In this document: positions 2,397 through 42,942 of the stretch, piece by piece
Layout: each line of letters begins with the position of its first letter
Position numbering within the stretch: position 1 is the stretch's first letter
Source: a virus
Length of the DNA: 47,374 nt
Virus record (IMG/VR): IMGVR_UViG_3300032770_000004
Span: 1-47,374 of that record
Direction: 5' to 3' (one strand)
Made by a program: the position numbers and the translations under genes
Notes under the pieces: generated by a model
The model's database searches: none
Told to the model about the DNA's origin: nothing
What the model saw: only the letters and a program-made list of their open reading frames with translations

Positions 2397-4357
2397 TGGC
2401 TCTTGAGATGCTGTCTGATACTGAGAAACTGCGACGCAGGCTTCTGTTTGTGCCGTGCGAAACCCGAGAGCATCTCAGGGCGTGGATCAAGGAATATCTT
2501 GGTATCGATTTCCCAGATTGTACGGTCAGCGACGAATCCAACAGCAACCCACTCGATAACATTTGGGAGGCGTATGATCGTCTCCGACGCAATGACGTAA
2601 TTGGATTTTCACGTGTGATGGCATACGCCAATCGTGGAGGCTTCAAAACTCTCGGCGCCTCGGTGCTTGAAGTCATGGTCGTGCTCCACCTACGTCGCAA
2701 TGTCGCTCACATGGCTGCTACTCTTGAGCAGTCTTCTGCTTCACAGGAGTATGTGAAGAACTTCTTCAACATTCCCATCATCCAACAATTCGTAGCAGCC
2801 CAGGCCGAAAAACACGTCCGCGTAGTGCGCTTTCAACATAAGGTCACCGGCTATTGTATCACCAAGACGGAATACGGAACGCTCTCTCTTGCTGACAAAA
2901 AGAACTACGTTCGCATTGAGAACTACATCAAGATTGTCGCCTGTACGATGCAGGGCGCCAACTCTAAGCACGTTGAATTTTTCGTTGTTGACGAGGTAGA
3001 CGTCGTCGCTCCTCAGAACGTAAAAGCCTACCAGCAGGCCAAGAATATTCCGGATCCGCGAGACGGAATGCTTCCTCTCACGTTGATGGTCTCTACTAGA
3101 AAGTCACGCACTGGCTTGGTACAGCGTGAAATCGACGAGGCAGAGCATACGAAGCTCCAGTTGCGTCACTGGAACATTATCGACACTACAGAAGCATGTA
3201 AGCCAGAGCGCCACAAGCCCGACTTACCGCGTCAGACATACTACATAAATGATGGCGATGTGAAACACATCACCAAAGAAGAGTATGACATCCTGAATCC
3301 TGCCGAGCAGAAAAAGTACTATCCAACCGAGGGATTTGCTGGCTGCCGTGGATGTCGTCTGTTTGCTGCCTGCAAGGGTCGTCTGGCTACCCATCAGAAG
3401 TCGACCTCTCCGATGCTTAAGCCCATCGAAGATGGCATCGCTAAGTTTCAAGGCGCTCCCAGCCCTGAGTTCATCATCACAGAGTATCTTTGCCGTAAGC
3501 CTGACACCAGCGGTCTAATCTATCCGCGCTTCAACCGCGAGAAGCATATGATTTCTACGGCTCAGATGGCCGAACTAATCACAGGCGATCCAATGCCTCA
3601 GGTAAAAGATAAGGCAGCTCTCTTGGCGCTTATGAAGCTGAAGGGCGCTGAGTTCTATGTTGGTATGGACTTCGGTTTCTCTCACAACTTCTCTGTCGTC
3701 ACTTTTGCTGTTTACGGCCAGTATGCTTTCGTAATCGATGTGTTCTCACAAGCCGGTCTAGAACTGGATGACAAAATCCAGGCATGTGAATATCTCAAGA
3801 CGGTTTATGACAATCCGATGATCTATCCTGATCCTGCTTATCCTGCTGACATTAAGACCTTTCGACGTAAGGGCTTTAAGGTGAAGGAATGGGATAAAGG
3901 CAAGGATTCGGTCAAGGCTGGCATCGAAATCGTGCGCACGCTTCTGTGGAGCGGTAAGAATGCCATTCGTCTCTATCTCATCAAAGAAGATCCAGGTTGC
4001 GAGCTACTGGCTAGTCGAATGGAAAAGTACAAGTTCACTATGGATGCAGCTGGTCTATATACGGATGTTCCAGACAAGACCGAGGACGACGAATGCGATG
4101 CCATTCGATATGGTATCATGAATGTCTTCGGTTCGAAGGGTGCTCTGAAGGTTCAGACAGGTGCTGCCATTGTGGTGGATGAATCTGGGAAGGTCAAGCA
4201 AGTAGCGTCAAATCAACAGCCGGGCCAGCAACAGGATTGGATGACACAAATGATTCGTCAGGCAGTTGGTGGTGGTGGCACAGACAGCAATGATCAGACG
4301 GATAGTAAAGTGCCACCAGCACAAATCAAAAAGGGTCGGTTCTTCTCCGACCTGTAA
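2396..4357 (+). CDS. terL: Terminase large subunit (packaging ATPase/nuclease)
   Basis: The 653-aa protein has an N-terminal ATPase with a variant Walker A (ANRGGFKTL, ~residues 78-86), Walker B FFVVDEVD (~195-202) and a coupling motif around STRKSRTG. A C-terminal RNase H-fold nuclease begins at VGMDFGFSHNFSVVTF (~420) with the later acidic cluster DDECDAIRYG (~563). Between them lies a cysteine group (GCRGCRLFAAC, ~318-328) that looks like a small metal-binding insertion. The motor pumps DNA into the procapsid through the portal and cuts the concatemer. The start overlaps the small subunit stop. Confidence 0.95.
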   Translation: MALEMLSDTEKLRRRLLFVPCETREHLRAWIKEYLGIDFPDCTVSDESNSNPLDNIWEAYDRLRRNDVIGFSRVMAYANRGGFKTLGASVLEVMVVLHLRRNVAHMAATLEQSSASQEYVKNFFNIPIIQQFVAAQAEKHVRVVRFQHKVTGYCITKTEYGTLSLADKKNYVRIENYIKIVACTMQGANSKHVEFFVVDEVDVVAPQNVKAYQQAKNIPDPRDGMLPLTLMVSTRKSRTGLVQREIDEAEHTKLQLRHWNIIDTTEACKPERHKPDLPRQTYYINDGDVKHITKEEYDILNPAEQKKYYPTEGFAGCRGCRLFAACKGRLATHQKSTSPMLKPIEDGIAKFQGAPSPEFIITEYLCRKPDTSGLIYPRFNREKHMISTAQMAELITGDPMPQVKDKAALLALMKLKGAEFYVGMDFGFSHNFSVVTFAVYGQYAFVIDVFSQAGLELDDKIQACEYLKTVYDNPMIYPDPAYPADIKTFRRKGFKVKEWDKGKDSVKAGIEIVRTLLWSGKNAIRLYLIKEDPGCELLASRMEKYKFTMDAAGLYTDVPDKTEDDECDAIRYGIMNVFGSKGALKVQTGAAIVVDESGKVKQVASNQQPGQQQDWMTQMIRQAVGGGGTDSNDQTDSKVPPAQIKKGRFFSDL

Positions 4358-4381: not shown

Positions 4382-5374
4382 ATGGATGCAATCCTAAACG
4401 TAGTTGTAAAGCTGCTCGCTTTCAGCGATCCGACCAACAATTCGAATCCTAGGTTGCGCCATGTTGACTGGACACGTGACATGAGCGGAATCGCTGTCCG
4501 CGATCCACGTTCGCAAGCATACGAAATCCTTCCAGGTTCAAGCCTCACCGTCTTTAATGGAACCAGGACTACTACCATCGATAGTACAACCGCTTTTACA
4601 GTATCGTTGCTACCTATCAATGGATCTGCTTCGCAGTATCGTTTCACTTACGTTTCGGGTACCGCTCCTGGCTTCCGTACTAGCCGCAGTCTAGCTGTCA
4701 CCGGAGTAGCCATAACGATGACCATGAACACGAATGCCACACTTGGTGTTCATGCCGCCTCTGGAATTTTTGGATCAGTTATCCCCGGCGACTCGGTCTT
4801 CATTCCTAACACGACTACTGGTGATTCTGCCAATGTATTCAGTGTGTTGAATTCTGGTTACTGGCAAGTTCTCTCTGTCGCCAGCGCTACTGACATCACC
4901 CTTGTACGTCCTGTAGGTCAGGCTTTCTCCGGCGCTAACGAAACCCAAACACCTGAATCCAATAGTCAGTTTGTGGCATTCAGTGCCGCAGGCGTTCAGA
5001 TTGGCGATAGCGTCGATATCAACGCCGGCTTCAATACCTCAACCTTGAAGGTCTTCGAGGTAGTCAATGTCACCGATTCTTTCTTCGAGGTGGTTAGCTC
5101 GGCTCCTCTTGCGCTGGATGTAGGCGTGACTCCTGGTGCTTCCGGGATGGCTTTCTATTCGGACTCTAAGCAAATGGTCTATGTCGAGGCCGATCAGGAA
5201 GTCGCTATTCAGATTAATGGAGATACCGGCCAGACGCAACGCGTAGGTTCCTTTGATCCTAGCGATCCAACTCAACCGGGCGTGTATCTAAAGATTGGCC
5301 CCACGTGGTCTTTGACAATTGTGAATCGCTCGGTCTCCTTGGCTAATGTAATTGTCATCCATGCAGCGGAGTAA
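4382..5374 (+). CDS. Beta-rich virion structural protein (unassigned)
   Basis: A 330-aa protein rich in Thr, Ser, Val and Gly with a strand-turn pattern and no obvious catalytic motif, typical of head-fibre, decoration or adaptor proteins. A ribosome binding site (CTGGAG) lies about 9 bases before the ATG. It sits between terminase and portal, so a virion component is likely. The N-terminus includes a short helix (MDAILNVVVKLLAF). Specific role unknown. Confidence 0.7.
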   Translation: MDAILNVVVKLLAFSDPTNNSNPRLRHVDWTRDMSGIAVRDPRSQAYEILPGSSLTVFNGTRTTTIDSTTAFTVSLLPINGSASQYRFTYVSGTAPGFRTSRSLAVTGVAITMTMNTNATLGVHAASGIFGSVIPGDSVFIPNTTTGDSANVFSVLNSGYWQVLSVASATDITLVRPVGQAFSGANETQTPESNSQFVAFSAAGVQIGDSVDINAGFNTSTLKVFEVVNVTDSFFEVVSSAPLALDVGVTPGASGMAFYSDSKQMVYVEADQEVAIQINGDTGQTQRVGSFDPSDPTQPGVYLKIGPTWSLTIVNRSVSLANVIVIHAAE

Positions 5375-5376
5375 GC

Positions 5377-7452
5377 ATGTCGAAGAAGAATCGTATTGAC
5401 ATCGGCGCGCTAAGCCCCTTCCAGCAGGAAGTGATTCGTTCCGTTATTGGCGGTAGTAGCCCGACACCTCAAGGAGAAAAGAGGCGTGTAAGTGTTGCTT
5501 TTGCGGATCCATTCTTCGTTGGTTCTTCTGGTGGCGCTCCACTAACTAAGGCCGATACTCAAGCCCATCAAGAAGCCGTTAGCAACAGTGACCCGCTTGT
5601 AAAGTCCATCCTCAACGTCCTCAATGGTCCTGGTGATAGCATTGAACGCCTTGCCTTCCAGGTAAGCCCCTATACTCAGAACACGTATGGCGGCCTATGG
5701 AAGCGCAAGCTTCGTCTACTGCCTGACGAAATTTTGAAGCGCGTTTCGATTCAAGACGACCTTGTCGCCGCTGTTGTCAATACGCGTAGCAACCAAATTG
5801 CAGCCTTTGGTCGTCCACAGCCGGATCGCTTCAGCACCGGCTTCAAGATTGAACCAGAGCCAGGATACACTGAGCACCTTACTTCCGAGCAGAAGCGCGA
5901 GCTTCAGAACAAGATTGCCGATGTAGAGGCACGTCTCCTTACGTGTGGTGAGACTAAGGGTTGGAACGACGAAGACGCTCTTGGCTTCGGACACTTTCTT
6001 TTCATGTCGGCACGCAATGCTGTAGTGTTCGGTAGGATTGCCACAGAAATCATTCATGTTGATACTCCTGGTGGTCGCAAGTTCCACTCGTTTAGGCCTA
6101 TTGACGCCGGAACCATCTATCGCGCTGCTCCTTACAAGAATGCAGCAGAGCAGGTACGTAGAAATGCTTTGCACATGTTGGAGCAGATCAAGAACAAGAA
6201 ACTTCAGCCCGAACGTTACGTTGCTGATGAATACACTTGGGTCCAGGTGATTGATGGTCGTCCGGTACAGGCCTTTACGAGCGAGGAATGTGTAGTCCAC
6301 AACTTCTATCCAACTACGGATGTCGAGCTTGATGGTTATCCCGTTTCGCCTCTAGATACGGTAATCACAGCTGTCACTACGCACATCAATATCGGTGTTC
6401 ACAACAAGCTTTATTTCCAGTCTGGCCGCGCTGCCCGAGGAATGATTGTCATCAAGTCTGATGACATTGATGAATCCATCACTGGATTTATCCGTCAACA
6501 ATTCAATGCCTCTATCAATAGCGTCGGCAACGCCTGGAGAATGCCTATCTTTGGTATTGGAACTGATGATGATGTGGGTTGGTACCCCATCGACAACAGT
6601 AGCCGTGACATGGAATTCCAGTACCTCAGCGACACCAATGCTCGTGTGATTCTTTCCGCATTCCAAATGTCGCCTGAAGAACTTCCTGGATATGCCCACT
6701 TGTCGCGCGGTACTAACAACCAAGCGCTCAGCGAATCCAACAACGAGTACAAGCTCGAAGCTCACCGTGATGTCGGTATTCGTCCGTTGATCGCACAGTT
6801 CCAGAACTTCATCAACGCCACTATCATGCCGTTGATTGCTCCGGAGCTTGCAGATTTCTGCCACTTCAAGTTTGTTGGTCTTGACGTAGACACTGCCGAG
6901 AAAGAAAGCACCCGCCTCCAGCAAGACATGGCCATTCACATGAACATGGACGAAGTACTGGAGAAGGTTGAGAAGAAGCCAGTGGGTCAGCGTTGGGCTG
7001 GTCAATTCTTGCTCAATCCCCAATGGGCTGCCGTTCTCGACAAGTACTTCCTGGTTGGCGACATCATGGAACACTTCTTTGGCATCAAAGGTGCTTCGCA
7101 GGATCCGCGCTTCCAGTTTGTTAACAACCCGATGTGGTTCAATTGGCAGCAACTCATGCAACAGCAACAGCAGATGGAGCAACAGCAACAGCAACAACAG
7201 ATGCAAGCTCAGCAGCAACAACAGATGCAGCAGCAACAGGGTCAAGAGGAACAGGGCGACCTTTCTCAGGGTGTAGACCAGCTTCACGGGCAGCTCAGTA
7301 AAGGCGAGAAGCAGCTCACTCCTAGTCGCAAGGCCCTATTGGCTCATGAACGCCGCATCCTCAAGAATGTACTGAAGGGTTTTGAGGAAGACGTGGCTAA
7401 GGCCACCGAAGACATTCTAGATGCAGCCGATGGACATTTGCCGGAGGAGTAA
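5377..7452 (+). CDS. Portal protein
   Basis: A 691-aa protein with the order of features seen in SPP1/HK97-type portals: a segment with TRSNQIAAFGRPQP, a long beta-rich wing domain, and a stem/clip segment with HLSRGTNNQALSESNNEYK followed by helical crown. It forms the dodecameric channel at the capsid vertex, binds the terminase and the head completion proteins. Residues ~592-625 are almost pure Gln with Met (CAG/CAA repeats at bases 7148-7250), an unusual low-complexity insertion near the C-terminus. It begins 2 bases after the previous stop and overlaps the next gene (TAATGG). Confidence 0.9.
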   Translation: MSKKNRIDIGALSPFQQEVIRSVIGGSSPTPQGEKRRVSVAFADPFFVGSSGGAPLTKADTQAHQEAVSNSDPLVKSILNVLNGPGDSIERLAFQVSPYTQNTYGGLWKRKLRLLPDEILKRVSIQDDLVAAVVNTRSNQIAAFGRPQPDRFSTGFKIEPEPGYTEHLTSEQKRELQNKIADVEARLLTCGETKGWNDEDALGFGHFLFMSARNAVVFGRIATEIIHVDTPGGRKFHSFRPIDAGTIYRAAPYKNAAEQVRRNALHMLEQIKNKKLQPERYVADEYTWVQVIDGRPVQAFTSEECVVHNFYPTTDVELDGYPVSPLDTVITAVTTHINIGVHNKLYFQSGRAARGMIVIKSDDIDESITGFIRQQFNASINSVGNAWRMPIFGIGTDDDVGWYPIDNSSRDMEFQYLSDTNARVILSAFQMSPEELPGYAHLSRGTNNQALSESNNEYKLEAHRDVGIRPLIAQFQNFINATIMPLIAPELADFCHFKFVGLDVDTAEKESTRLQQDMAIHMNMDEVLEKVEKKPVGQRWAGQFLLNPQWAAVLDKYFLVGDIMEHFFGIKGASQDPRFQFVNNPMWFNWQQLMQQQQQMEQQQQQQQMQAQQQQQMQQQQGQEEQGDLSQGVDQLHGQLSKGEKQLTPSRKALLAHERRILKNVLKGFEEDVAKATEDILDAADGHLPEE

Positions 7453-22679: not shown

Positions 22680-22782
22680 GGGGAAGTCGTCTAACAGGAT
22701 AACCCTCCGCAAGGAGAATAAGTAAGACACCGTAACAGCCCTCCTAGGCACGGAGTCGTTGGTGCAAATCCAACCTTCTCCA
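22680..22782 (+). tRNA. 103-nt tRNA-like gene with D-loop and anticodon-loop insertions
   Basis: Acceptor GGGGAAG/CTTCTCC and T-arm GTTGG-TGCAAAT-CCAAC are intact. D-stem GTCT/AGAC encloses an extra hairpin CTCC-GCAA-GGAG. The anticodon stem CCGTA/CACGG closes a 14-base loop (ACAGCCCTCCTAGG) instead of 7. The isotype cannot be assigned. Confidence 0.6.
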
Positions 22783-22891
22783 CTTGAAGTACTAAAGCCT
22801 CCTGACGAAAGAGCCGTTGGCACTAGCGGCTTGATCACTAAATAACTAGAAAACCCTTTGCTGGGGAGGGGCCAAGAACCCAGCGTAGTTT

Positions 22892-22963
22892 GCTCCCGTA
22901 GTACAATAGATAGAACGCAGCCCTGCGAAGGCTGAGATCCAGGTGCGATTCCTGGCGGGAGTA
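22892..22963 (+). tRNA. tRNA-Arg(GCG)
   Basis: Acceptor GCTCCCG/CGGGAGT, anticodon arm CAGCC-CTGCGAA-GGCTG, T-arm CCAGG-TGCGATT-CCTGG. GCG is an uncommon Arg anticodon; bacteria usually use ACG. Confidence 0.85.
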
Positions 22964-23063
22964 CAACGCGATCAATCCAAAAAGATTGCGCCAGTCGCTG
23001 GTGAAGGCCGTTAACCTCACTGGCGCAGCCCGCGAAATGTGACGGCTAGAGTAGCGGGTGTTT

Positions 23064-23140
23064 GGTCCCGTATCAGACCGAGCTTCGAACTCGGATCTTG
23101 TAATTGGATGAAAATGTAGGTTCGAGCCCTATCGGGACTG
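23064..23140 (+). tRNA. D-arm-less tRNA-Arg(TCG)
   Basis: Acceptor GGTCCCG/CGGGACT, anticodon arm CCGAG-CTTCGAA-CTCGG, T-arm GTAGG-TTCGAGC-CCTAT. Only 7 bases (TATCAGA) lie between acceptor and anticodon stem, too few for a D-arm, and the variable region is 21 bases. Confidence 0.6.
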
Positions 23141-23219
23141 CCTTCGAAGTGCCAGTTGCTTTGCGCTAATTGCCATGCGATAGTGACATATGAGAGACGA
23201 TTTGAATGAGGAAGAAAAT

Positions 23220-23290
23220 GCTCTGTTAGTTCAGTGGTAGAACGACGGTATGACTCACCGTAGGAGCTGGTTCGATTCCAGCACAGAGTA
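23220..23290 (+). tRNA. tRNA-Val(GAC)
   Basis: Acceptor GCTCTGT/ACAGAGT, anticodon arm ACGGT-ATGACTC-ACCGT, T-arm GCTGG-TTCGATT-CCAGC. Confidence 0.9.
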
Positions 23291-23320
23291 CTTCGAACGC
23301 GAGATCGAAAACAAAATTGA

Positions 23321-23392
23321 GTCGCTATCGGCTAGGAGTAAGGCTGTCAGATTCTCAATCTGAAGACCTGGGTGCGAATCCCAGTAGCGATA
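23321..23392 (+). tRNA. tRNA-Glu(CTC)
   Basis: Acceptor GTCGCTA/TAGCGAT, anticodon arm TCAGA-TTCTCAA-TCTGA, T-arm CTGGG-TGCGAAT-CCCAG. Confidence 0.9.
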
Positions 23393-23396
23393 TGAA

Positions 23397-23468
23397 GCGC
23401 CTATCGTCCAAAGGCTAGGACACAGACCCGATAAGTCTGATATGTTGGTTCGACTCCAACTAGGCGTA
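23397..23468 (+). tRNA. tRNA-Ile(GAT)
   Basis: Acceptor GCGCCTA/TAGGCGT, anticodon arm CAGAC-CCGATAA-GTCTG (C33 in place of U33), T-arm GTTGG-TTCGACT-CCAAC. Confidence 0.85.
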
Positions 23469-23682
23469 CATGCACGACCGATAGAACCGGACACACGAAA
23501 CCGGCAAGGTAGGTTCGTAAAGTGGCTTCTACTGCTCCACGTGCAAAAGGTAGAGGACTACAGTCCCTAAGATTGTCGAGCTGATCGCCGTAAGAGGATC
23601 AGGAACACGAGCTGAATGGATTTTCAGGCCTCTCCGGCTACGCGAGGATTAGGGGGTTCGATTCCCTCCGTTAAGTTTCTTA
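23469..23682 (+). other. Structured tRNA-array interval, not resolved
   Basis: Holds TGCACG...CGTGCA and CTGATC...GATCAG stems, a D-arm-like GGTAGAG, and near its end a clear T-arm (GGGGG-TTCGATT-CCCTC) with acceptor-like CGTTAAG. A matching 5' acceptor strand was not found upstream; CTTAGCC three bases downstream nearly matches. It probably contains one broken, permuted or heavily inserted tRNA. Confidence 0.4.
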
Positions 23683-23743
23683 GCCGAATGCTCGTAAGTC
23701 TACATTTACTTAAAAATAAACGACTTACAAAATACTTGTCGGC
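23683..23743 (+). ncRNA. Scaffold RNA module without tRNA (copy C)
   Basis: Outer helix GCCGA/TCGGC, AATGCTC, inner helix GTAAGTC/GACTTAC (7 Watson-Crick pairs), TACAT at 23701-23705, AAAATACTTG before the closing strand. Terminal loop 21 bases. Confidence 0.65.
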
Positions 23744-23748
23744 ATTTT

Positions 23749-23821
23749 CTGGGTGAGGTGCATACGGGTGCATACACGGTCGGGATCCGTGGGGGAGCTG
23801 GTTCGATTCCAGCCACTCAGA
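23749..23821 (+). tRNA. tRNA-Pro(GGG)
   Basis: Acceptor CTGGGTG/CACTCAG with C1-G72, anticodon arm CACGG-TCGGGAT-CCGTG, T-arm GCTGG-TTCGATT-CCAGC. Confidence 0.88.
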
Positions 23822-23825
23822 CTAG

Positions 23826-23897
23826 CAGGGAATGCGGTAATGGCTAACCACTACGTTTTGGATACGTAAATTCTGGGTTCGAATCCCAGTTCCCTGA
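23826..23897 (+). tRNA. tRNA-Pro(TGG)
   Basis: Acceptor CAGGGAA/TTCCCTG with C1-G72, anticodon arm TACGT-TTTGGAT-ACGTA, T-arm CTGGG-TTCGAAT-CCCAG. Confidence 0.9.
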
Positions 23898-23914
23898 CAA
23901 GTAATCTTGGAACC

Positions 23915-24244
23915 ATGGCAAAGGTTTCCAAGGAGTATTACCGAGACTGGTATCAAAAGAACAAGGATCGGATTAAAGGACGCAAGAAAGAAGCTCGACA
24001 GAGAGCACGAGCTAAACTTCGTGCGATCGTGGATGTAGCCAAGCAGATTCCGTGTAAGGATTGTGGCGTTCAGTATCCACCATATGTAATGACTTTCGAT
24101 CATCTTGGTGACAAGAAATTTAATGTTGCGGACCTTGGTGGAGTGAGCATTGACGCCCTAAAGGCCGAAATCGCTAAGTGTCAAGTGGTCTGTGCTAATT
24201 GCCATGCTGAAAGAACTCATCGTAGGCGTATTGACAAAGGCTGA
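23915..24244 (+). CDS. HNH endonuclease (phage free-standing type)
   Basis: A 109-aa protein with a basic helical N-terminus, CKDC (~48-51), VMTFDHLGDKKFN (~59-71) and VVCANCHAERTHRR (~91-104): the zinc-bound His-Me finger of small phage HNH nucleases. A close paralogue lies at 46347. TAATCT lies 7 bases before the ATG, so it is likely leaderless. It sits directly after a tRNA, a common landing place for such elements. Confidence 0.88.
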   Translation: MAKVSKEYYRDWYQKNKDRIKGRKKEARQRARAKLRAIVDVAKQIPCKDCGVQYPPYVMTFDHLGDKKFNVADLGGVSIDALKAEIAKCQVVCANCHAERTHRRRIDKG

Positions 24245-24259
24245 TTTGGATGCTACATT
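24231..24259 (+). promoter_or_regulatory. Leaderless-type promoter
   Basis: TTGACA, 17-base spacer, TACATT, 6 bases, ATG at 24266. The -35 box lies inside the end of the HNH gene. Confidence 0.7.
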
Positions 24260-24265
24260 GACACC

Positions 24266-24412
24266 ATGGAAAACGATCTCCGCAATCTTGATTGGGGCGA
24301 GGGGATGAATCAGGCACTGTCGGCGGATCTCAAGGTCGACATTGCGGGCAATCAGGCCCAACTGACTTTGGAGCTGCTCAAGGCTCTGGATCGGAAGAAG
24401 GCCAAAAACTGA
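24266..24412 (+). CDS. 48-aa helical micro-protein, leaderless
   Basis: Starts MENDLRNLDWGEGMNQALSA and ends LLKALDRKKAKN. Its position exactly 6 bases after a consensus promoter supports it as a real gene. No family recognised. Confidence 0.55.
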   Translation: MENDLRNLDWGEGMNQALSADLKVDIAGNQAQLTLELLKALDRKKAKN

Positions 24413-24421
24413 GGTACTGAA

Positions 24422-24670
24422 ATGGCAACGTACGCAATTTTTTATGATCATGGCGTCTATGAATATGGTTACGCGACCATGGAGGACGCCGCCAATGAAT
24501 TGGCAGGTCTTACTAACCCCGAGCGATTCTACATAGCTGAATGCTGCCCTGGCAGCACTGCTTACTGTGAAGATGCTGAAAAAGGAAAGTGTCCTTTTTG
24601 TGATCTCGGGGAACAGGACCCCATTGACCCTCAGGACATCGCGGCGTATGATAATGAGGTTGATCTGTAA
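24422..24670 (+). CDS. Small Cys-rich acidic hypothetical protein
   Basis: 82 aa with CC (~41-42), C (~49) and CPFC (~57-60), a possible small zinc site. The N-terminus MATYAIFYDHGVYEYGYATM is strand-like. It follows the 48-aa gene by 9 bases and probably shares its transcript. Confidence 0.55.
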   Translation: MATYAIFYDHGVYEYGYATMEDAANELAGLTNPERFYIAECCPGSTAYCEDAEKGKCPFCDLGEQDPIDPQDIAAYDNEVDL

Positions 24671-24679
24671 GTAACACTC

Positions 24680-24758
24680 GTCCGGATGGTGGAACGGCAG
24701 ACACGGTGGCCTTAGAAGCCACTGCGCAAGCGTGAGGGTTCGAATCCCTCTCTGGACA
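24680..24758 (+). tRNA. tRNA-Leu(TAG), class II
   Basis: Acceptor GTCCGGA/TCTGGAC, Leu-type D-arm GTGGAACGGCAGACAC, anticodon arm GTGGC-CTTAGAA-GCCAC, long variable arm TGCGCAAGCGT, T-arm GAGGG-TTCGAAT-CCCTC. Confidence 0.92.
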
Positions 24759-24827
24759 CTGCGCTCTTAGCCCGAGGCGCGCGATATAAAATTCGGTCAC
24801 TTCGTTGGTGCAGAAGAGCATCATAAT

Positions 24828-24898
24828 GGCGGTATCGTCTAGTGGTAGGACACGAGACTTTCAATCTCAGAACCGGAGTTCGATTCTCCGTATCGCTA
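24828..24898 (+). tRNA. tRNA-Glu(TTC)
   Basis: Acceptor GGCGGTA/TATCGCT, anticodon loop CTTTCAA on stem GAGA/TCTC, T-arm CGGAG-TTCGATT-CTCCG. Confidence 0.9.
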
Positions 24899-25024
24899 CT
24901 GTAGTAATGTGCTAACTGTCATCGTGACAGGACGCATAGACAAGAAATTGCCGACAAGCATTAAAGTGATGCAAGGGCCTTTGAAGCCCTGGAACTGGGC
25001 GCAATACCTAGGTCGGTAGCTTTT

Positions 25025-25095
25025 GCTCCTATCGGTTAACGGCAGGCCACGGTCTTGGTAAGACTGAAGTCAAGGTTCAATTCCTTGTGGGAGCA
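25025..25095 (+). tRNA. tRNA-Thr(GGT)
   Basis: Acceptor GCTCCTA/TGGGAGC, anticodon arm CGGTC-TTGGTAA-GACTG, T-arm CAAGG-TTCAATT-CCTTG. Confidence 0.9.
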
Positions 25096-25184
25096 TGTAA
25101 GTTAGGCGTAAGATCGATTGAGAACCGTCCTAACACAGTGGGTGACGATGCGGATCGCAACCGTACGGAATACTCCCACAATTT

Positions 25185-25258
25185 GCCTCATTAGCTCAGT
25201 GGATCAGAGCTGACGCCTTCTAAGCGTATGGTCGGGAGTTCGATTCTCTCATGAGGTG
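25185..25258 (+). tRNA. tRNA-Arg(TCT)
   Basis: Acceptor GCCTCAT/ATGAGGT, D-arm GCTC...GAGC, anticodon loop CTTCTAA, T-loop TTCGATT, G73. Confidence 0.9.
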
Positions 25259-25263
25259 CTGAT

Positions 25264-25337
25264 GTCCCTATAGCTCAGTGGAAAAGAGCAACGCGGTCCT
25301 AACGCGATGGTCGGGAGTTCGATTCTCTCTGGGGATA
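25264..25337 (+). tRNA. tRNA-Arg(CCT)
   Basis: Acceptor GTCCCTA/TGGGGAT, D-arm GCTC...GAGC, anticodon loop GTCCTAA, T-arm similar to the preceding tRNA-Arg, which suggests local duplication. Confidence 0.88.
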
Positions 25338-25399
25338 TAGCCTAGCTTAGATCGGCACGGCGTCTAGCTAGGGCCGCTCGAAAATTGAGCCGTGCTTTC

Positions 25400-25510: not shown

Positions 25511-25993
25511 ATGCTCTTCAAGGTCGAAATCCTTCGTGGAATCCCTGGTTCTGGCAAGAGTACTTTCGCCAAGAAGCTCATCGAAGCTCGCAGCAAAGAG
25601 CTGAGTCGCCCTCTTGTCGCATGGGTAGACTATGTCATCGTGTCCGCCGATCAATTCTTCGAGCGTGATGGCGAGTACAAGTTCGATGCGAAGGAACTTG
25701 ATTCTGCCCACAAGATGTGCCTCCAGAACTTCGAGGCCGCTCTTCGTGGCAACATTCCCTACATCATCGTTGACAATACCAATCTGTCAGCGTGGGAAAT
25801 CTCGCCCTATTACCTGCTGGCTGATGCCAAAAACTACAGCGTGCGGATCATTACTGTGCGCGCCCCGCCCGAGGTGGCTCACAAGCGTGGTATTCACGGT
25901 GTGACTTGGAGCAAGACCACCCGGATGTTCGAGCGCTTGATTAAGGGTGAGCAGGAAATGCCCTGGCACTGGAAGAAAGAGAACTACCCATGA
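25511..25993 (+). CDS. P-loop kinase (polynucleotide-kinase/AAA_33-like)
   Basis: A 160-aa protein with Walker A GIPGSGKST (~10-18), YVIVSADQFF (~41-50; the SxD of nucleotide/polynucleotide kinases), IIVDNTNLSAWE (~89-100) and a lid with RGIHGV. This is the zeta-toxin/PNK/NEDD4BP2-like kinase group, here without a phosphatase domain. A 5'-RNA or DNA kinase role is plausible and would complement the cREC protein in end repair. Leaderless start. Coupled by ATGA to a small membrane protein. Confidence 0.8.
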   Translation: MLFKVEILRGIPGSGKSTFAKKLIEARSKELSRPLVAWVDYVIVSADQFFERDGEYKFDAKELDSAHKMCLQNFEAALRGNIPYIIVDNTNLSAWEISPYYLLADAKNYSVRIITVRAPPEVAHKRGIHGVTWSKTTRMFERLIKGEQEMPWHWKKENYP

Positions 25994-33148: not shown

Positions 33149-33703
33149 ATGAAACTAAACGATAAGATGCAAGTGGCGATGTACTTTGCGAACGCTATTC
33201 ACACCGACGCAAATCAGCTCTATGACGGCAAGGCCTATGTGACTCACCTTCAGGACGTAGTGAATGTCCTCATGGACTTCGATGTCACTGATCGCAGTAT
33301 CCTGGCAGCTGCCTATCTGCATGACATCATGGAGGATTGCAAAGTACCGCGATCTGTCCTTGATGAGCTGTTTGGTGTCGATGTTGGTATGCTCGTCTGG
33401 TGTGTGACTGATGAAGAAGGTGTTAACCGTAAGGAACGCAAGGCTAAGACTTACGGAAAGATCAAGGCGAATGATAATGCTGTTGCCATTAAGTTGGCGG
33501 ATCGCATTGCAAACGTCGAACATTCGATCCAGTCCAAGAACATTCGGATGTTCAAGATGTATCGTAAGGAGATGGCAGACTTCACCGCCGCCCTTTACAC
33601 CCCGAATCTCCTAGAGTCTATGTGGAATCGCCTACGTGAGGCGATTGCTGAGGGCACCCGAGTTTTTGATGCGCACCAAAACAGCAAGCCAGCGATTGCG
33701 TGA
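33149..33703 (+). CDS. HD-domain (MESH1/SpoT-hydrolase-like) phosphohydrolase
   Basis: 184 aa with H at YVTHLQDV (~28-36), the HD pair in AAAYLHDIMEDC (~54-65), and AIKLADRIANVEH (~113-125): the H...HDxxED...KxADRxxN signature of (p)ppGpp hydrolases of the SpoT/MESH1 type. No synthetase, TGS or ACT domains are present. It may lower alarmone levels during infection or act on another pyrophosphorylated nucleotide. Leaderless. Confidence 0.8.
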   Translation: MKLNDKMQVAMYFANAIHTDANQLYDGKAYVTHLQDVVNVLMDFDVTDRSILAAAYLHDIMEDCKVPRSVLDELFGVDVGMLVWCVTDEEGVNRKERKAKTYGKIKANDNAVAIKLADRIANVEHSIQSKNIRMFKMYRKEMADFTAALYTPNLLESMWNRLREAIAEGTRVFDAHQNSKPAIA

Positions 33704-34810: not shown

Positions 34811-35272
34811 ATGTCTACCGACGAGGAACTTCAACATCTGCGTAGCTACGTTTCGAAGCTGATTGACCGCTACGAGAATTGGATGCCCAAGGACCCAGCT
34901 GTCAGCCCGCTGTATTCAGCTGGTATGATGGAGGCATTCATGGAAGTTGCCAGGGACCTACATCAGTGCATGCCGCAAGAACCGGGATTTCTTTTCTCTC
35001 CTGTGTTCTCTGGTGGAACAGCCGCAGACCCTCTTCCCGACGAGACCGAGGTGAAGGTGATATTGATCTCCTTGCCGACTGAGGGCAAGGAACTCTACGA
35101 GGTGGTCAAGGTCGTTCGGGCAGTCACTCCAATGTCATTGCCTGATGCCATTCAGATGATTCGCAAGGTCGGGAAAGAGCCGGTCGTCGTCAAGGACCAC
35201 ATGATTCGGCGCGATGCTGTCAAAATCAAGGAAGCCTTCAGGAAGGCGGGGGCGACCGTCGAGCTAGTTTGA
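34811..35272 (+). CDS. bL12 C-terminal-domain fusion protein
   Basis: 153 aa. Residues ~1-75 are a helical domain without known relatives. Residues ~80-153 (EVKVILISLPTEGKELYEVV...LPDAIQMIRKVGKEPVVVKD...KIKEAFRKAGATVELV) follow the ribosomal L7/L12 C-terminal domain throughout, including the final helix-strand (compare ALKKALEEAGAEVEVK). That domain recruits translational GTPases. bL12-type proteins have been reported in viral genomes. Ribosome binding site AAAGGAA. A second, shorter bL12-like frame lies at 27325. Confidence 0.75.
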   Translation: MSTDEELQHLRSYVSKLIDRYENWMPKDPAVSPLYSAGMMEAFMEVARDLHQCMPQEPGFLFSPVFSGGTAADPLPDETEVKVILISLPTEGKELYEVVKVVRAVTPMSLPDAIQMIRKVGKEPVVVKDHMIRRDAVKIKEAFRKAGATVELV

Positions 35273-36908: not shown

Positions 36909-38573
36909 ATGGCAACTGTAGTTTTGACAATTGGACAACTGAAGAACGCGATCACGGAGTCTGGCCTCAAGCCTGCTCCCGATACGCGAGTGTTTGAAGA
37001 TGGCGGCACCGACAAGAACGGGAAGCCGATTCGTACTCCCGTTGGCCACTATTGGCCGTATAACGGCGTTCGTGAGGACTACATCGACGGTACTCGTTAC
37101 AGTGACCAACAGGGCATTCAGATAGATCTCGACAAGCTTGACCGCCGAATCACGGTGCTCATTGCCAAGGACAAGTCTGTTGCTCCGCGAAGTCGTATCG
37201 TCATTCGCAAGTTTCTGGGCATTTTCGAAGAGGTTCAGCTCGACAAACTGCTCGTGAATCCGAGCGAATTCGCTGAGGCACTTCTCACTCTTCCTGAAAT
37301 CGAAGGATTCAATGCAGAGGTGAATTTCCTCGGTCACTGGTATCCGTTGGCGATGTCTTTCGACACCTTCGATACCATGATGGGACCGATTAACTTCTGC
37401 AATGGTGAGTTGGTCATCGATTCTGGATTCTCGGACTACCGCTACTTCAGCGTTGGTACCTCCACCTTCACGGAAGATGGCGTCCCTTGTCCAAAGACTC
37501 TTCGTCAGATCTTCACGGAAAACAATCTACGTACGATCACGAAGGAAACGATCGCTGATTACCACAAGCGCCTGGAGCGTGCGGCTGCCTTCCGAACCCA
37601 CAAGGGTACACAGGTTCTCTTTACGGGCCCCAGCGTGGGCGTCAGCATCTTCGGTTCTCCGCGTATGGTTCTCACTGGTTCTCCTGAAGCGCCTACTAAG
37701 GGCGTCGTCGAGTCAGAATTGGAGAACTCCACTCGCGAGAAGACCCGCTACACCATTCAGCAGGAAGCTACGGTCGCCCAAATGCCTTTCGTCCGTGTCT
37801 TCAGTCTCCAGCTGAAGCGCTACGTGTGGACCGATGTCGACGACCTGAAGATGTACGACTATGATCAGACGGCCATTGACCGCCTGACTCTTCCAGACAA
37901 CATCAACAGCGTGATTCGCAAGGTGTTCGAATCGAGCAATAACGTGCTCGGCGGTGACGTTCTCTCCAACCGCCATGGCGGCATGATCATCTTGGCCAAC
38001 GGTGGCCCAGGCGTCGGCAAGACCCTGACTGCCGAGGTGTTCGCTGAGTTCACCAAGCGCCCCCTCTACGTGATGGAGATCGGTGAAATCGGTACCGACA
38101 TCAACGAGTTGGAGGACAACCTCACGAAGATTTTCGAACGTGTGCAGAAGTGGAACGCCGTACTCCTCTTCGACGAAGCGGACATCTTCCTCCACAAGCG
38201 TGGTGACAATCTCCAGCACAATGCTGTGGTCGGCATCTTCCTGCGTCTCATGGACTACTACCGTGGCTTGCTGTTCATGACCACGAACCGTGGTGACGCA
38301 ATCGATCTCGCCTTCCAGAGTCGAATCACTCTGCGCCTGGAGTATCCGAACCTGGACCTACACGCCCGCAAGAGTGTCTGGACCACGATGTTCAAGCAGA
38401 ACAAGCTCGAAGTGGAAGACACGCTGCCGACCCTCCTGGCCGAAAAGTACTCGACCATCAACGGTCGTCAGATTCGCAATGCCGTCCGCTTGATGAAGGT
38501 TCTGTATCCCAACGGCAACTTCACCATCGCTCAGGCCTCCGAGGCGATTGACTTCACTCCTGGACTGGCGTAA
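36909..38573 (+). CDS. AAA+ ATPase
   Basis: 554 aa. A unique N-terminal region (~1-340) precedes a classic AAA+ module: Walker A NGGPGVGKTLTAE (~364-376), Walker B AVLLFDEADIF (~416-426), sensor-1 MTTNRGDAID (~456-465) and arginine-finger region AFQSRITLRL. The C-terminal lid has NGRQIRNAVR. Sequence style is nearest the classic AAA clade (FtsH/BCS1/ClpA-like). Strong ribosome binding site (AGGAG) indicates abundant synthesis. It may remodel proteins or DNA complexes; substrate unknown. Confidence 0.88.
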   Translation: MATVVLTIGQLKNAITESGLKPAPDTRVFEDGGTDKNGKPIRTPVGHYWPYNGVREDYIDGTRYSDQQGIQIDLDKLDRRITVLIAKDKSVAPRSRIVIRKFLGIFEEVQLDKLLVNPSEFAEALLTLPEIEGFNAEVNFLGHWYPLAMSFDTFDTMMGPINFCNGELVIDSGFSDYRYFSVGTSTFTEDGVPCPKTLRQIFTENNLRTITKETIADYHKRLERAAAFRTHKGTQVLFTGPSVGVSIFGSPRMVLTGSPEAPTKGVVESELENSTREKTRYTIQQEATVAQMPFVRVFSLQLKRYVWTDVDDLKMYDYDQTAIDRLTLPDNINSVIRKVFESSNNVLGGDVLSNRHGGMIILANGGPGVGKTLTAEVFAEFTKRPLYVMEIGEIGTDINELEDNLTKIFERVQKWNAVLLFDEADIFLHKRGDNLQHNAVVGIFLRLMDYYRGLLFMTTNRGDAIDLAFQSRITLRLEYPNLDLHARKSVWTTMFKQNKLEVEDTLPTLLAEKYSTINGRQIRNAVRLMKVLYPNGNFTIAQASEAIDFTPGLA

Positions 38574-39993: not shown

Positions 39994-40065
39994 AGCGGCT
40001 TGGCAGAATAGTTATGCAGCAGCCTCTGAAGCTGCCTTAAGTTGGTGCAAGTCCAACAGCCGCTG
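39994..40065 (+). tRNA. tRNA-Gln(CTG)
   Basis: Acceptor AGCGGCT/AGCCGCT, anticodon arm GCAGC-CTCTGAA-GCTGC, T-arm GTTGG-TGCAAGT-CCAAC, G73. Confidence 0.9.
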
Positions 40066-40066
40066 C

Positions 40067-40095
40067 TTGACAACCCACCTGGGGAGTCATATAGT
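40067..40095 (+). promoter_or_regulatory. Promoter of tRNA array 2
   Basis: TTGACA, 17-base spacer, TATAGT. About 150 bases of hairpin-rich leader follow before tRNA-Tyr; no convincing gene lies in it. Confidence 0.75.
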
Positions 40096-40247
40096 AGGAA
40101 CAATCATGTTGACTTTGAAATCACATAGTTTCAGTTCGACGACGGGCTTTTCGAGCCTGGATAGTTTTTATTGCCTTGATCTCGCGTAAGCGAGGATCGG
40201 CATACGGCCTAGGCACCCGTGGTGCCGATCCATTGAAAATTGAATAA

Positions 40248-40331
40248 GCGGCATTGGCAGAGCAGCAATTGCGATGCGCTGTAAACGCATTGGCCTTTGG
40301 GCCTACGGAGGTGCAAGTCCTTCATGCCGCA
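40248..40331 (+). tRNA. tRNA-Tyr(GTA), class II
   Basis: Acceptor GCGGCAT/ATGCCGC, anticodon arm ATGCG-CTGTAAA-CGCAT, long variable arm, T-arm GGAGG-TGCAAGT-CCTTC. Preceded by GAAAATTGAATA. Confidence 0.92.
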
Positions 40332-40334
40332 CAT

Positions 40335-40409
40335 GTCCAAGTGAAGGGAACTGGTATACCTGTACGATTGAGAATCGGACGCTTGTGGGTTCGAATCCCA
40401 CCTAGGACA
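40335..40409 (+). tRNA. tRNA-Leu(GAG) with short variable loop
   Basis: Acceptor GTCCAAG/CTAGGAC (one mismatch), Leu-like D-arm GGGAACTGGTATACC, anticodon loop TTGAGAA, T-arm GTGGG-TTCGAAT-CCCAC. The variable region is only 5 bases, unlike normal bacterial tRNA-Leu. Confidence 0.75.
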
Positions 40410-40425
40410 CTAAAAATTGAATATT

Positions 40426-40498
40426 GGAGCTTTAGCAAATCTGGTGATTGCACTGGTCTGAAAAGCCGAGAAGGTCGGATCGTAACCGACAGGCTCCA
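40426..40498 (+). tRNA. tRNA-Phe(GAA)
   Basis: Acceptor GGAGCTT/AGGCTCC, D-arm GCAA...TTGC, anticodon loop CTGAAAA, T-arm GTCGG-ATCGTAA-CCGAC. Preceded by AAAATTGAATA. Confidence 0.88.
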
Positions 40499-40568
40499 CA
40501 AGGCAGTCCTATCGGAGTGTTGGGATAGGACAACGCCCTCCCGAGGCGGGTAGTGGAGGGCAACATAT

Positions 40569-40652
40569 GGTGGTCATGATGTAGTGGAGCCGCAAGGCGT
40601 AGCATGACAGGCTGTGACCCTGTTCGGCTGGGTTCAAATCCCAGTGATCACC
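40569..40652 (+). tRNA. tRNA-His(GTG) with hairpin inserted in the D-loop
   Basis: G-1 opposite C73 (His identity), acceptor GTGGTCA/TGATCAC, anticodon arm ACAGG-CTGTGAC-CCTGT, T-arm CTGGG-TTCAAAT-CCCAG. The D-loop reads AGTGG then AGCC-GCAA-GGC then GTAGC: an 11-base GNRA-tetraloop hairpin added to an otherwise ordinary D-loop. Confidence 0.85.
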
Positions 40653-40688
40653 CTGTAGTAGTCTTTGACAATTGAATAGCAGTTATTT

Positions 40689-40762
40689 GCCGATGTAGCC
40701 CAAAGGTACGAGGCGCTGCGCTCAGAACGCAGAGGTTGCGAGTTCGAATCTCGCCATCGGTA
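40689..40762 (+). tRNA. tRNA-Leu(CAG) with short variable loop
   Basis: Acceptor GCCGATG/CATCGGT, anticodon arm CTGCG-CTCAGAA-CGCAG, T-arm GCGAG-TTCGAAT-CTCGC, variable region AGGTT. The D-arm is not Leu-like either. Confidence 0.8.
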
Positions 40763-40763
40763 T

Positions 40764-41053
40764 GAAGTAGGTGCGACGATCGCTAGGACTGTATGTCTAG
40801 AGGAAAGTCGGGGCTCCGTAAGACACGATACCGGTTAACGGCCGGGTGGCAGTAATGTTACGCAACCTGCAACAGTGACGAACCGATTTAGTTCGGGTGA
40901 AACGGGCAGACTATCGGGAGCAAGCTCGAAACGGGATGGTCCGTCTGGCCATAATCCCAGGTTGAGTGCTTGAGGGATGTGGTAACATATCTCCTAGACG
41001 AATGATCGTCCCTCGCAAGAGGAACAGAACCCCGCTTATGGCCTACTACTTTT
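40764..41053 (+). ncRNA. rnpB: Bacterial-type RNase P RNA
   Basis: Contains, in order, the universal bacterial RNase P RNA blocks: GAGGAAAGTCGGGGCTCC (5' strand of P4), CTGCAACAGTGACGAACCG, GGGTGAAACGGGCAG, GGGAGCAAG, GAGTGCTTGAGG, TAGACGAATGATCGTCC and ACAGAACCCCGCTTAT (3' strand of P4). AGTAGG near the start pairs with CCTACT near the end (P1). Compared with E. coli, P4 has C-to-G on one side and the matching G-to-C on the other, a compensatory change that argues for a functional RNA. At ~290 nt it is shorter than the 377-nt E. coli RNA. It begins one base after tRNA-Leu(CAG). No rnpA protein gene is seen, so a host protein is presumably used. Confidence 0.93.
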
Positions 41054-41506
41054 ATGAAGTGTGAAACTTGTACGAATGAGATTGCTAGATACTCCACGAC
41101 AGGGCTGTGCAAGAGGTGTTATGGCCGTAAGTGGTGGAAAGAAAAGGCAAAAAATCCGGAAGTTCTTCGAAACCGAAGAGAACAACAAAAGCGGCCATTG
41201 CCTCGTTTTCAGCATGCCAAACGATCCGCTGCACACAGAAGAATAGATTGGAATTTGACGTTTGAGGAATGGGTCGAGATCAGTAGTCGTCCGTGTCACT
41301 ACTGCAACAACGAGATGGGGAAGACTGAGGGATATGGTGTCAATTTGGATCGTATCGATTGCTCAAAGGGATATTCTAAAGACAATGTGATTCCGTGTTG
41401 TGGGATTTGCAACAAGATTCGTAACAATTTTTGGACGGTGGACGAAATGAAGGTTGCCGTCAAGGCAGTTCTGGAGTATCGTCGTAAAGTTAGTTTGGAG
41501 GCTTAG
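41054..41506 (+). CDS. HNH endonuclease next to RNase P RNA
   Basis: 150 aa. N-terminal CETC...CKRC zinc ribbon (~3-22), a basic middle, then PCHYCNNEMG (~81-90), GVNLDRIDCSKGYSKDN (~96-112) and VIPCCGICNKIRN (~113-125): an HNH nuclease with structural cysteines. It starts directly at the 3' end of the RNase P RNA and its TAG stop lies inside tRNA-Lys(TTT), so it fills the gap between two RNA genes exactly. Likely a mobile homing element. Confidence 0.85.
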   Translation: MKCETCTNEIARYSTTGLCKRCYGRKWWKEKAKNPEVLRNRREQQKRPLPRFQHAKRSAAHRRIDWNLTFEEWVEISSRPCHYCNNEMGKTEGYGVNLDRIDCSKGYSKDNVIPCCGICNKIRNNFWTVDEMKVAVKAVLEYRRKVSLEA

Positions 41507-41570
41507 CAAATCTGGTGATTGCAGTGGGCTTTTACCCCACCGAGACAGGTTCGATTCCATGTAGCCTTCA
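41497..41570 (+). tRNA. tRNA-Lys(TTT) with bulged T-stem
   Basis: Acceptor GGAGGCT/AGCCTTC, anticodon arm GTGGG-CTTTTAC-CCCAC. The T-stem ACAGG/CC-A-TGT carries one extra A. The first 27 bases closely resemble tRNA-Phe at 40426 (TTAGCAAATCTGGTGATTGC), so the two share an origin. Confidence 0.8.
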
Positions 41571-41629
41571 CTTCATGAATGGGAATGCGGGGCACTCCTG
41601 AGGATACGATCTTCGAAACCCTAGCGTAT

Positions 41630-41702
41630 GTGCGAGTGGTGAAACGGTAAACACAGGGGCCTTAAAATCCCCGGATTGTGGGTTCGAATCCCACCTTGCA
41701 TA
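41630..41702 (+). tRNA. tRNA-Leu(TAA) with short variable loop
   Basis: Acceptor GTGCGAG/CTTGCAT, Leu-like D-arm GTGAAACGGTAAACAC, anticodon loop CTTAAAA, T-arm GTGGG-TTCGAAT-CCCAC, variable GGATT (5 bases). Confidence 0.82.
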
Positions 41703-41705
41703 CAT

Positions 41706-41778
41706 CCCATCTAAGAATGCTGGTGCGTTCAGCTGCCTGTCACGCAGAGAGAGGTCGGTTCGATTCCGTCAGGTGGGG
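41706..41778 (+). tRNA. tRNA-Asp(GTC)
   Basis: Acceptor CCCATCT/AGGTGGG, D-arm GAAT...GTTC, anticodon loop CTGTCAC, T-loop TTCGATT, G73. Confidence 0.85.
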
Positions 41779-41809
41779 CTTTGAGGTATAATCGAGGTAT
41801 AATCAAGGC

Positions 41810-42865: not shown

Positions 42866-42871
42866 CTTATA

Positions 42872-42942
42872 GACGAGTTCCCTCCAGTGAGGGCAGTGGT
42901 CTGCAAAACTACTTGAGGTCAGTGCAACCCTGACACTCGTCT
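42872..42942 (+). tRNA. tRNA-Cys(GCA)
   Basis: Acceptor GACGAGT/ACTCGTC with U73, anticodon arm GTGGT-CTGCAAA-ACTAC, T-arm GTCAG-TGCAACC-CTGAC. Confidence 0.93.

Follow-up and report, generated by a model that had tools for sequence, protein, structure and literature searches.

A class A RNase P RNA encoded in a tRNA array of a large tailed phage, with relatives in other tRNA-rich viral contigs

The stretch of DNA analysed here, referred to as the window, comprises the first 47,374 nucleotides of a 169,962-bp virus contig (IMG/VR record IMGVR_UViG_3300032770_000004). It carries two groups of tRNA genes, the second of which encloses a gene for a 290-nt RNA that begins on the base following tRNA-Leu(CAG), just as a preliminary description had placed it (Table 1). 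The start codon of an HNH nuclease gene follows immediately 3′ of this RNA, and the end of that gene overlaps tRNA-Lys(UUU) (41497-41571) by 10 nt. The nuclease gene thus occupies the entire gap between the RNA and tRNA-Lys, as would be expected of a homing gene inserted at this site. ARAGORN predicts 29 tRNAs in the window and 36 in the full record; three to four weaker candidates obtained with Rfam only (at 21386, 21955, 23064 and perhaps 42871) bring the total to about 36 to 40. The tRNA array proposed earlier is thus real, with fewer genes than the ~45 then counted.

Table 1. Features of the RNA locus and the tRNA arrays (window coordinates)
Feature	Position	Strand	Evidence
First tRNA array: 18 ARAGORN tRNAs and 3 weaker Rfam candidates; probable substrates	21128..25338	+	ARAGORN, Rfam
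Second tRNA cluster: Gln, Tyr, Leu, Phe, His, Leu - P RNA - HNH - Lys, Leu, Asp	39994..41779	+	ARAGORN
tRNA-Leu(CAG), last base adjoins P RNA start	40688..40763	+	ARAGORN; Rfam 63.5 bits
Class A RNase P RNA (catalytic subunit of RNase P), 290 nt, without P13/P14	40764..41053	+	RF00010 154.9 bits; 86/86 modelled pairs
P4 5′ strand AAG(U)CGGGG, bulged U, within conserved block GAGGAAAGUC-GGGGC	40805..40813	+	pairs with 41030-41037, 8/8 standard
P6 pseudoknot 5′ strand AGAC, partner L17 GUCU at 40943-40946	40821..40824	+	4/4 pairs standard
GGU motif, L15	40960..40962	+	sequence reading and Rfam alignment
P18 with GUAA loop	40974..40993	+	8/8 pairs standard
P19-like hairpin CCUC-GCAA-GAGG	41011..41022	+	hand model
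P4 3′ strand CCCCGCUU, within conserved block ACAGAACCC-GCUUA	41030..41037	+	Rfam match, hand model, phage alignment
HNH / endonuclease VII-like homing-type nuclease	41054..41506	+	phrog_3118 E 2e-16, phrog_1035 E 3e-15

Several smaller features accompany the tRNAs. A similar leader, AAAATTGAATA (or ACAATTGAATA), occurs shortly 5′ of the tRNAs at 21226, 40248, 40426 and 40688, and a TTGACA-type leader ahead of tRNA-Leu was rejected as a repeated promoter, there being one full copy only. Beside the first array lies the gene for a small kinase that resembles seryl-tRNA(Sec) kinase or polynucleotide kinase (25511-25993, plus strand), and the second tRNA region contains a weak tRNA-Sec-like match (42871-42942, plus strand).

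Searching with Infernal and all Rfam families, we obtained for the 290-nt RNA a match to RF00010 (RNaseP_bact_a) that spans model positions 1-367 (E = 4.1e-48) and lies well above the curated cut-off of 100 bits, with class A as the top match within the clan. The locus encodes a full-length class A RNase P RNA (P RNA), the identity assigned beforehand from its conserved blocks, with boundaries that agree to the base. In a secondary structure built by hand, comprising P1-P12, P15-P19 and both pseudoknots (P4, P6), all 86 pairs are standard, compared with at best 50 and on average 32 in 10,000 shuffled sequences; the figure is favoured by the choice of pairs, which was guided by the window sequence itself, comparisons between homologues being less affected. 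The catalytic core is present, with the bulged U in P4 and the blocks GAGGAAAGUC, ACAG, GGGUGAAA and ACAGAACCC-GCUUA; the eight pairs of P4 are intact, as is P15 with its GGU motif. Neither of the signs named beforehand as refuting, a weak covariance-model score or a broken P4/P15, is therefore seen. P6, P16 and P17 are all paired, the class A arrangement rather than the P5.1/P15.1 of class B.

In class A RNAs, the P18 loop docks on P8 and the GGU of L15 binds the 3′ RCC of the substrate tRNA. The tRNAs of the window do not encode CCA, while the P RNA retains this CCA-binding motif, a point that we count against the function proposed below. Where E. coli has GGGC/GCCC in P6, the window RNA has AGAC/GUCU, and one pair of P4 is G-C instead of the C-G of E. 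coli, in line with the compensatory change noted in the preliminary description. We considered this P4 variant as a sign of an unusual RNA and rejected the idea because the variant is common in bacteria, being present in at least 120 bacterial genome stretches, mostly of Actinomycetota.

Overall, the window RNA resembles the bacterial class A rnpB product (M1 RNA; RF00010) in its conserved blocks, P1-P12, P15-P18, P4/P6 pseudoknots, L15 GGU and P18 tetraloop, but differs in being phage-encoded, in lying within a tRNA array, and in lacking both an accompanying rnpA and P13/P14. It is also short and low-scoring (290 nt, 154.9 bits) next to the listed chromosomal RNAs of myxococci (about 345-475 nt, about 263-313 bits). 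In the Rfam alignment, the missing P13/P14, usual in class A RNAs and a loss that the preliminary description did not note, appears as 43 skipped model positions between GGGUGAAA and the 3′ strand of P10. We count against a functional reading both this loss, which may make the fold weaker, and a predicted minimum free energy only moderately below that of shuffles (z = -2.4). The absence of P13/P14 is not decisive against class A, because many RNase P RNAs of CPR bacteria also lack P13 and P14, along with P16 and P17, and score under the model cut-offs (PMC8172020); those RNAs are chromosomal and cellular, whereas the window RNA resides in a phage and keeps P16/P17.

The record is a genuine phage. 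Genes for the large terminase, portal and major capsid proteins all lie within the same window as the P RNA. The nearest cultured phage found by capsid comparison, Myxococcus phage Mx1 (genome of 169,621 bp; capsids 61% identical), has the identical gene order from terminase to capsid and matches 85 ORFs of the record over the full 170 kb. The contig ends are adjacent in Mx1, so the genome is near complete. From this relationship, the carrier is likely a large tailed phage of a myxobacterial or myxobacteria-like host. In Mx1 the capsid gene adjoins that for thymidylate synthase, whereas ~37 kb separate the two in the window phage, and this interval holds nearly all the tRNAs together with the P RNA. 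A profile search of the entire 169,962-bp record found no rnpA (PF00825), bearing out the earlier remark that no protein-subunit gene is seen.

Could the P RNA be common to the whole Mx1-like family? We reject this, since it is missing from all 45 records of capsid relatives and from Mx1. Eleven large IMG/VR records of such relatives without P RNA have 0-11 tRNAs each, versus 35 in the window phage, and within this family the link to tRNAs is not built in because the relatives were gathered by capsid regardless of the RNA. Mx1, without a P RNA, nevertheless has 32 tRNAs; a tRNA-rich phage of this kind can therefore do without one, which speaks against the function we propose.

Other genes of the window phage also relate to RNA and translation. 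Outside the window, on the minus strand of the same record (105263-106852), a Ro60/Rsr (TROVE) protein is encoded (PF25045, E 2e-19; TROVE, E 1e-8) that is 45% identical to its Mx1 counterpart. The first tRNA array includes a weak Y RNA-like (YrlA) match below cut-off (RF02553; 22474-22586, plus strand, E 8e-4), and the plus-strand gene at 34811-35272 encodes a protein that contains the C-terminal domain of ribosomal L7/L12 (PF00542, E 4.5e-9). Together, these make a wider RNA and translation toolkit plausible. Two further plus-strand genes specify a RelA/SpoT-type HD domain protein, possibly an alarmone hydrolase (33149-33703; PF13328, TIGR00691 over residues 10-124), and an AAA ATPase (36909-38573) that matches a phage 'ATP-dependent protease' family and, weakly, the model of the anti-phage ATPase IteA.

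The preliminary description had called a phage P RNA at least rare, a statement that needs amending. Scanning IMG/VR for two conserved P RNA blocks and filtering by nearby tRNAs, we found 33 records, the window phage included, with a P RNA within or close to a tRNA array, corresponding to ~31 distinct RNAs; the link to tRNA arrays is partly built into this number because tRNA proximity was what separated phage-like from host-flank contigs. RF00010 matches are present in 31 of the 33 records, 25 of them above the cut-off. The remaining two loci, L094 and L098, rest on motifs, L094 having a 41.9-bit match in addition. Phage hallmark genes were confirmed directly in the window record (G000) and, as terminase, portal or capsid matches, in G003, G013, G025, G030 and G031; the phage nature of the other carriers follows the IMG/VR classification. 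The carriers tested have 23-67 tRNAs, and rnpA (PF00825) was found in none of the 33 records by the identical search that detects it in 10 control genomes.

The organization of these loci is recurrent as well. Wherever a flanking tRNA allowed a check (28 loci), P RNA and tRNAs share a strand, often with no more than 12-50 nt between the P RNA and a tRNA. Typically, a tRNA ends 25-50 nt upstream of GAGGAAAGUC, i.e., beside P1, and in many loci the next tRNA begins 12-30 nt downstream of GCUUA. The same neighbours are seen repeatedly: tRNA-Cys and tRNA-Gly flank the P RNA in L095, L225, L228, L230, L233 and L252, tRNA-Leu and tRNA-Arg in L236, L242 and L246, and tRNA-Thr and tRNA-Gly in L227 and L250. 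In L094, one phage tRNA array holds a GOLLD RNA (2630-3102) and a very divergent RNase P RNA (5365-5646).

Many other matches were set aside. Most single-block pattern matches in IMG/VR had no second block, and those inspected resembled chance or protein-coding sequence; ~19 P RNA contigs were host flank with no tRNA array. Searching INPHARED with the window RNA gave no match, and with two carrier RNAs the inspected matches were host flank or bacterial, the others being unannotated fecal contigs and short partial matches; these three queries thus yielded no genuine P RNA from a cultured phage. The 274-kb record of Microcystis phage MaAM05 (MW495066.1, L308) was rejected as a carrier: it contains fabI, engB, glyS and a full-scoring rnpB and therefore looks at least partly like bacterial chromosome. 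An Acinetobacter match adjoins an integrase and coaD and is of host type.

The nearest homologue of the window RNA is L003, at 68% identity, from a phage contig that shares almost no proteins with the window phage (one weak match). Of the 86 modelled pairs, 51 are unchanged between the two RNAs, 24 are compensated double changes, none is changed on one side, 7 are unpaired and 4 fall in gaps; compensated changes thus make up 24 of the 31 pairs that differ. So many double changes at 68% identity argue that the structure has been held under selection. Across nine phage RNAs, 50 of the 86 pairs change on both sides, and the covariation score is 0.371, versus 0.153 for shuffles and at most 0.135 for slid structures; these figures are under-counts because the alignment, made from sequence alone, puts P6 and P16/P17 out of register in the more distant RNAs. 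In P18, 7 of the 8 pairs vary on both sides among phage homologues, and P4 shows no variation in the phage alignment except for one compensated pair.

When placed in a tree alongside chromosomal RNAs, the window RNA groups with L003 (support 0.99), its only supported neighbour, the deeper nodes being poorly supported. That it was recently copied from a myxococcal rnpB receives no support, as it did not group with the Myxococcota RNAs tried. The phage RNAs split into several tree groups, with L227, L250 and L251 next to the RNAs of two contigs of probably bacterial origin. These several groups, together with the differing neighbour tRNAs, make repeated capture probable; what fits best, as far as the sequences tell, is repeated capture of P RNA by tRNA-rich phages with some movement between phages.

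Phage P RNAs also tend to be small. Measured from GAGG to GCUUA, their cores span 154-309 nt with a median of 271, compared with a median of 305 in the chromosomal set. Some match the model over its full length while scoring under the Rfam cut-off: L057 (192 nt, 58.3 bits), L099 (221 nt, 71.7 bits), L038 (243 nt, 84.9 bits) and L007 (266 nt, 64.8 bits). On visual inspection, L057 seems to retain P1-P5, a P15 with GGU and a P16-like stem, with a single hairpin standing in for the specificity domain, a structure that gets no support from free-energy folding alone (z = -0.1). L057, L038, L098 and L099, at roughly 190-245 nt, appear to have lost most of that domain. Archaeal type T RNase P RNAs have likewise lost most of the specificity domain, and these four shortest phage homologues resemble them in this respect; in contrast to type T, the window RNA retains the domain except for P13/P14, and the phage RNAs are of bacterial type A by sequence. 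For RNase P biochemists, the series shrinking to about 190 nt would offer candidate minimal natural type A ribozymes; the catalytic domain of type A RNAs, taken on its own, is able to cleave substrates with lower efficiency (PMC5839562).

The closest precedents in the literature are the reduced CPR RNAs described above and a case in mycobacteria. Mycobacterium austroafricanum and M. sp. YC-RL4 have extra RNase P RNA homologues, one with an altered specificity domain, with an endonuclease gene between them, and the authors suspect horizontal transfer (PMC9569102); these are located on bacterial genomes and were not reported from phages. Theta ribozymes in the tRNA regions of gut phages are a phage ribozyme proposed for tRNA end processing (PMC10879173), but they are self-cleaving, were proposed for 3′ trailers and are unrelated to RNase P. 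Full-text searches of 5.4 million open-access papers turned up no description of an RNase P RNA from a phage, and neither 'Clades of huge phages' nor a jumbo-phage survey mentions RNase P; a search of this scope does not establish priority. In the sources found, phage P RNA genes are neither annotated nor named, and some score under the Rfam cut-off. By family the RNA belongs to class A; what sets it apart is its phage-borne, RNA-only form without P13/P14, placed in tRNA arrays.

We think it probable that the window encodes a functional class A RNase P RNA, which would join host RnpA to mature phage pre-tRNAs. The data establish the identity of the RNA, its intact fold, the covariation between phages, the recurrence in tRNA arrays and the absence of rnpA from the searched records; its transcription, the trimming of its ends, its binding by host RnpA, its catalysis and its selective advantage are what we infer. 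The P RNA would be co-transcribed with the phage tRNA array and then freed from the joint transcript, its 5′ end being produced by 3′ processing of tRNA-Leu. In most related loci, where a tRNA lies directly downstream, the 3′ end would come from cleavage at that tRNA, so that RNase P would form the end of its own RNA. As the phage record yielded no RnpA gene, the RNA would assemble with the host protein, and the resulting enzyme would cut the 5′ leaders off the 36-40 phage pre-tRNAs. RNase P capacity might thereby be kept matched to a sudden pre-tRNA load while transcription of host rnpB may be shut down.

That the locus is bacterial contamination or a misassembly is the least probable reading. 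It does account for several of the IMG/VR and INPHARED matches (the ~19 host-flank contigs, MaAM05, Acinetobacter), but the window contains the terminase, portal and capsid genes, Mx1 matches extend across 170 kb, the P RNA is flanked by phage-type tRNAs and the HNH gene, and five further carriers show phage structural or terminase genes. Scarcely more credible is a regulatory use, in which the RNA would act chiefly on phage or host mRNAs rather than on tRNAs: bacterial RNase P is known to cleave some non-tRNA substrates, and yet the placement within tRNA arrays is consistent across unrelated phages.

Two further explanations deserve somewhat more weight, and we still consider either one improbable. 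The P RNA might be a passenger or relic that arrived with the tRNA block and is carried along without an effect of its own, as its patchy presence (absent in the 45 capsid-relative records and Mx1) and its location in an accessory region with many HNH nucleases would suggest. A 290-nt RNA under drift, however, would lose P4, P6 or P18, whereas all modelled pairs are intact at ~68% identity to L003 with 24 compensated changes, and there are ~31 distinct carriers in several tree groups. Alternatively, the phage RNA might be a decoy that occupies host RnpA, lowering host tRNA maturation or shifting the choice of precursors toward the phage. No carrier has rnpA, so any holoenzyme must use the host protein, and phage RNAs diverge and shrink, some apparently (on inspection) without the part that reads the tRNA; against a pure decoy stand the full conservation of a catalytic core that it would not need and the 5′ maturation that phage tRNAs still require.

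RNase P belongs to the few ribozymes that are nearly universal, and it is viewed as a cellular housekeeping enzyme. Extending our preferred reading of a working P RNA, one may speculate, though we think it rather unlikely in full, that long-standing P RNA lineages circulate among phages, some reduced to ~190-nt catalytic domains, and recruit host RnpA into a phage-specific, self-freeing RNase P that prefers phage over host tRNAs, bringing tRNA maturation under phage control. A virus that has the catalytic RNA but not the protein is likely to form a hybrid ribonucleoprotein with its host, and the phage P RNA suggests that tRNA maturation, beyond tRNA supply, may be worth taking over.
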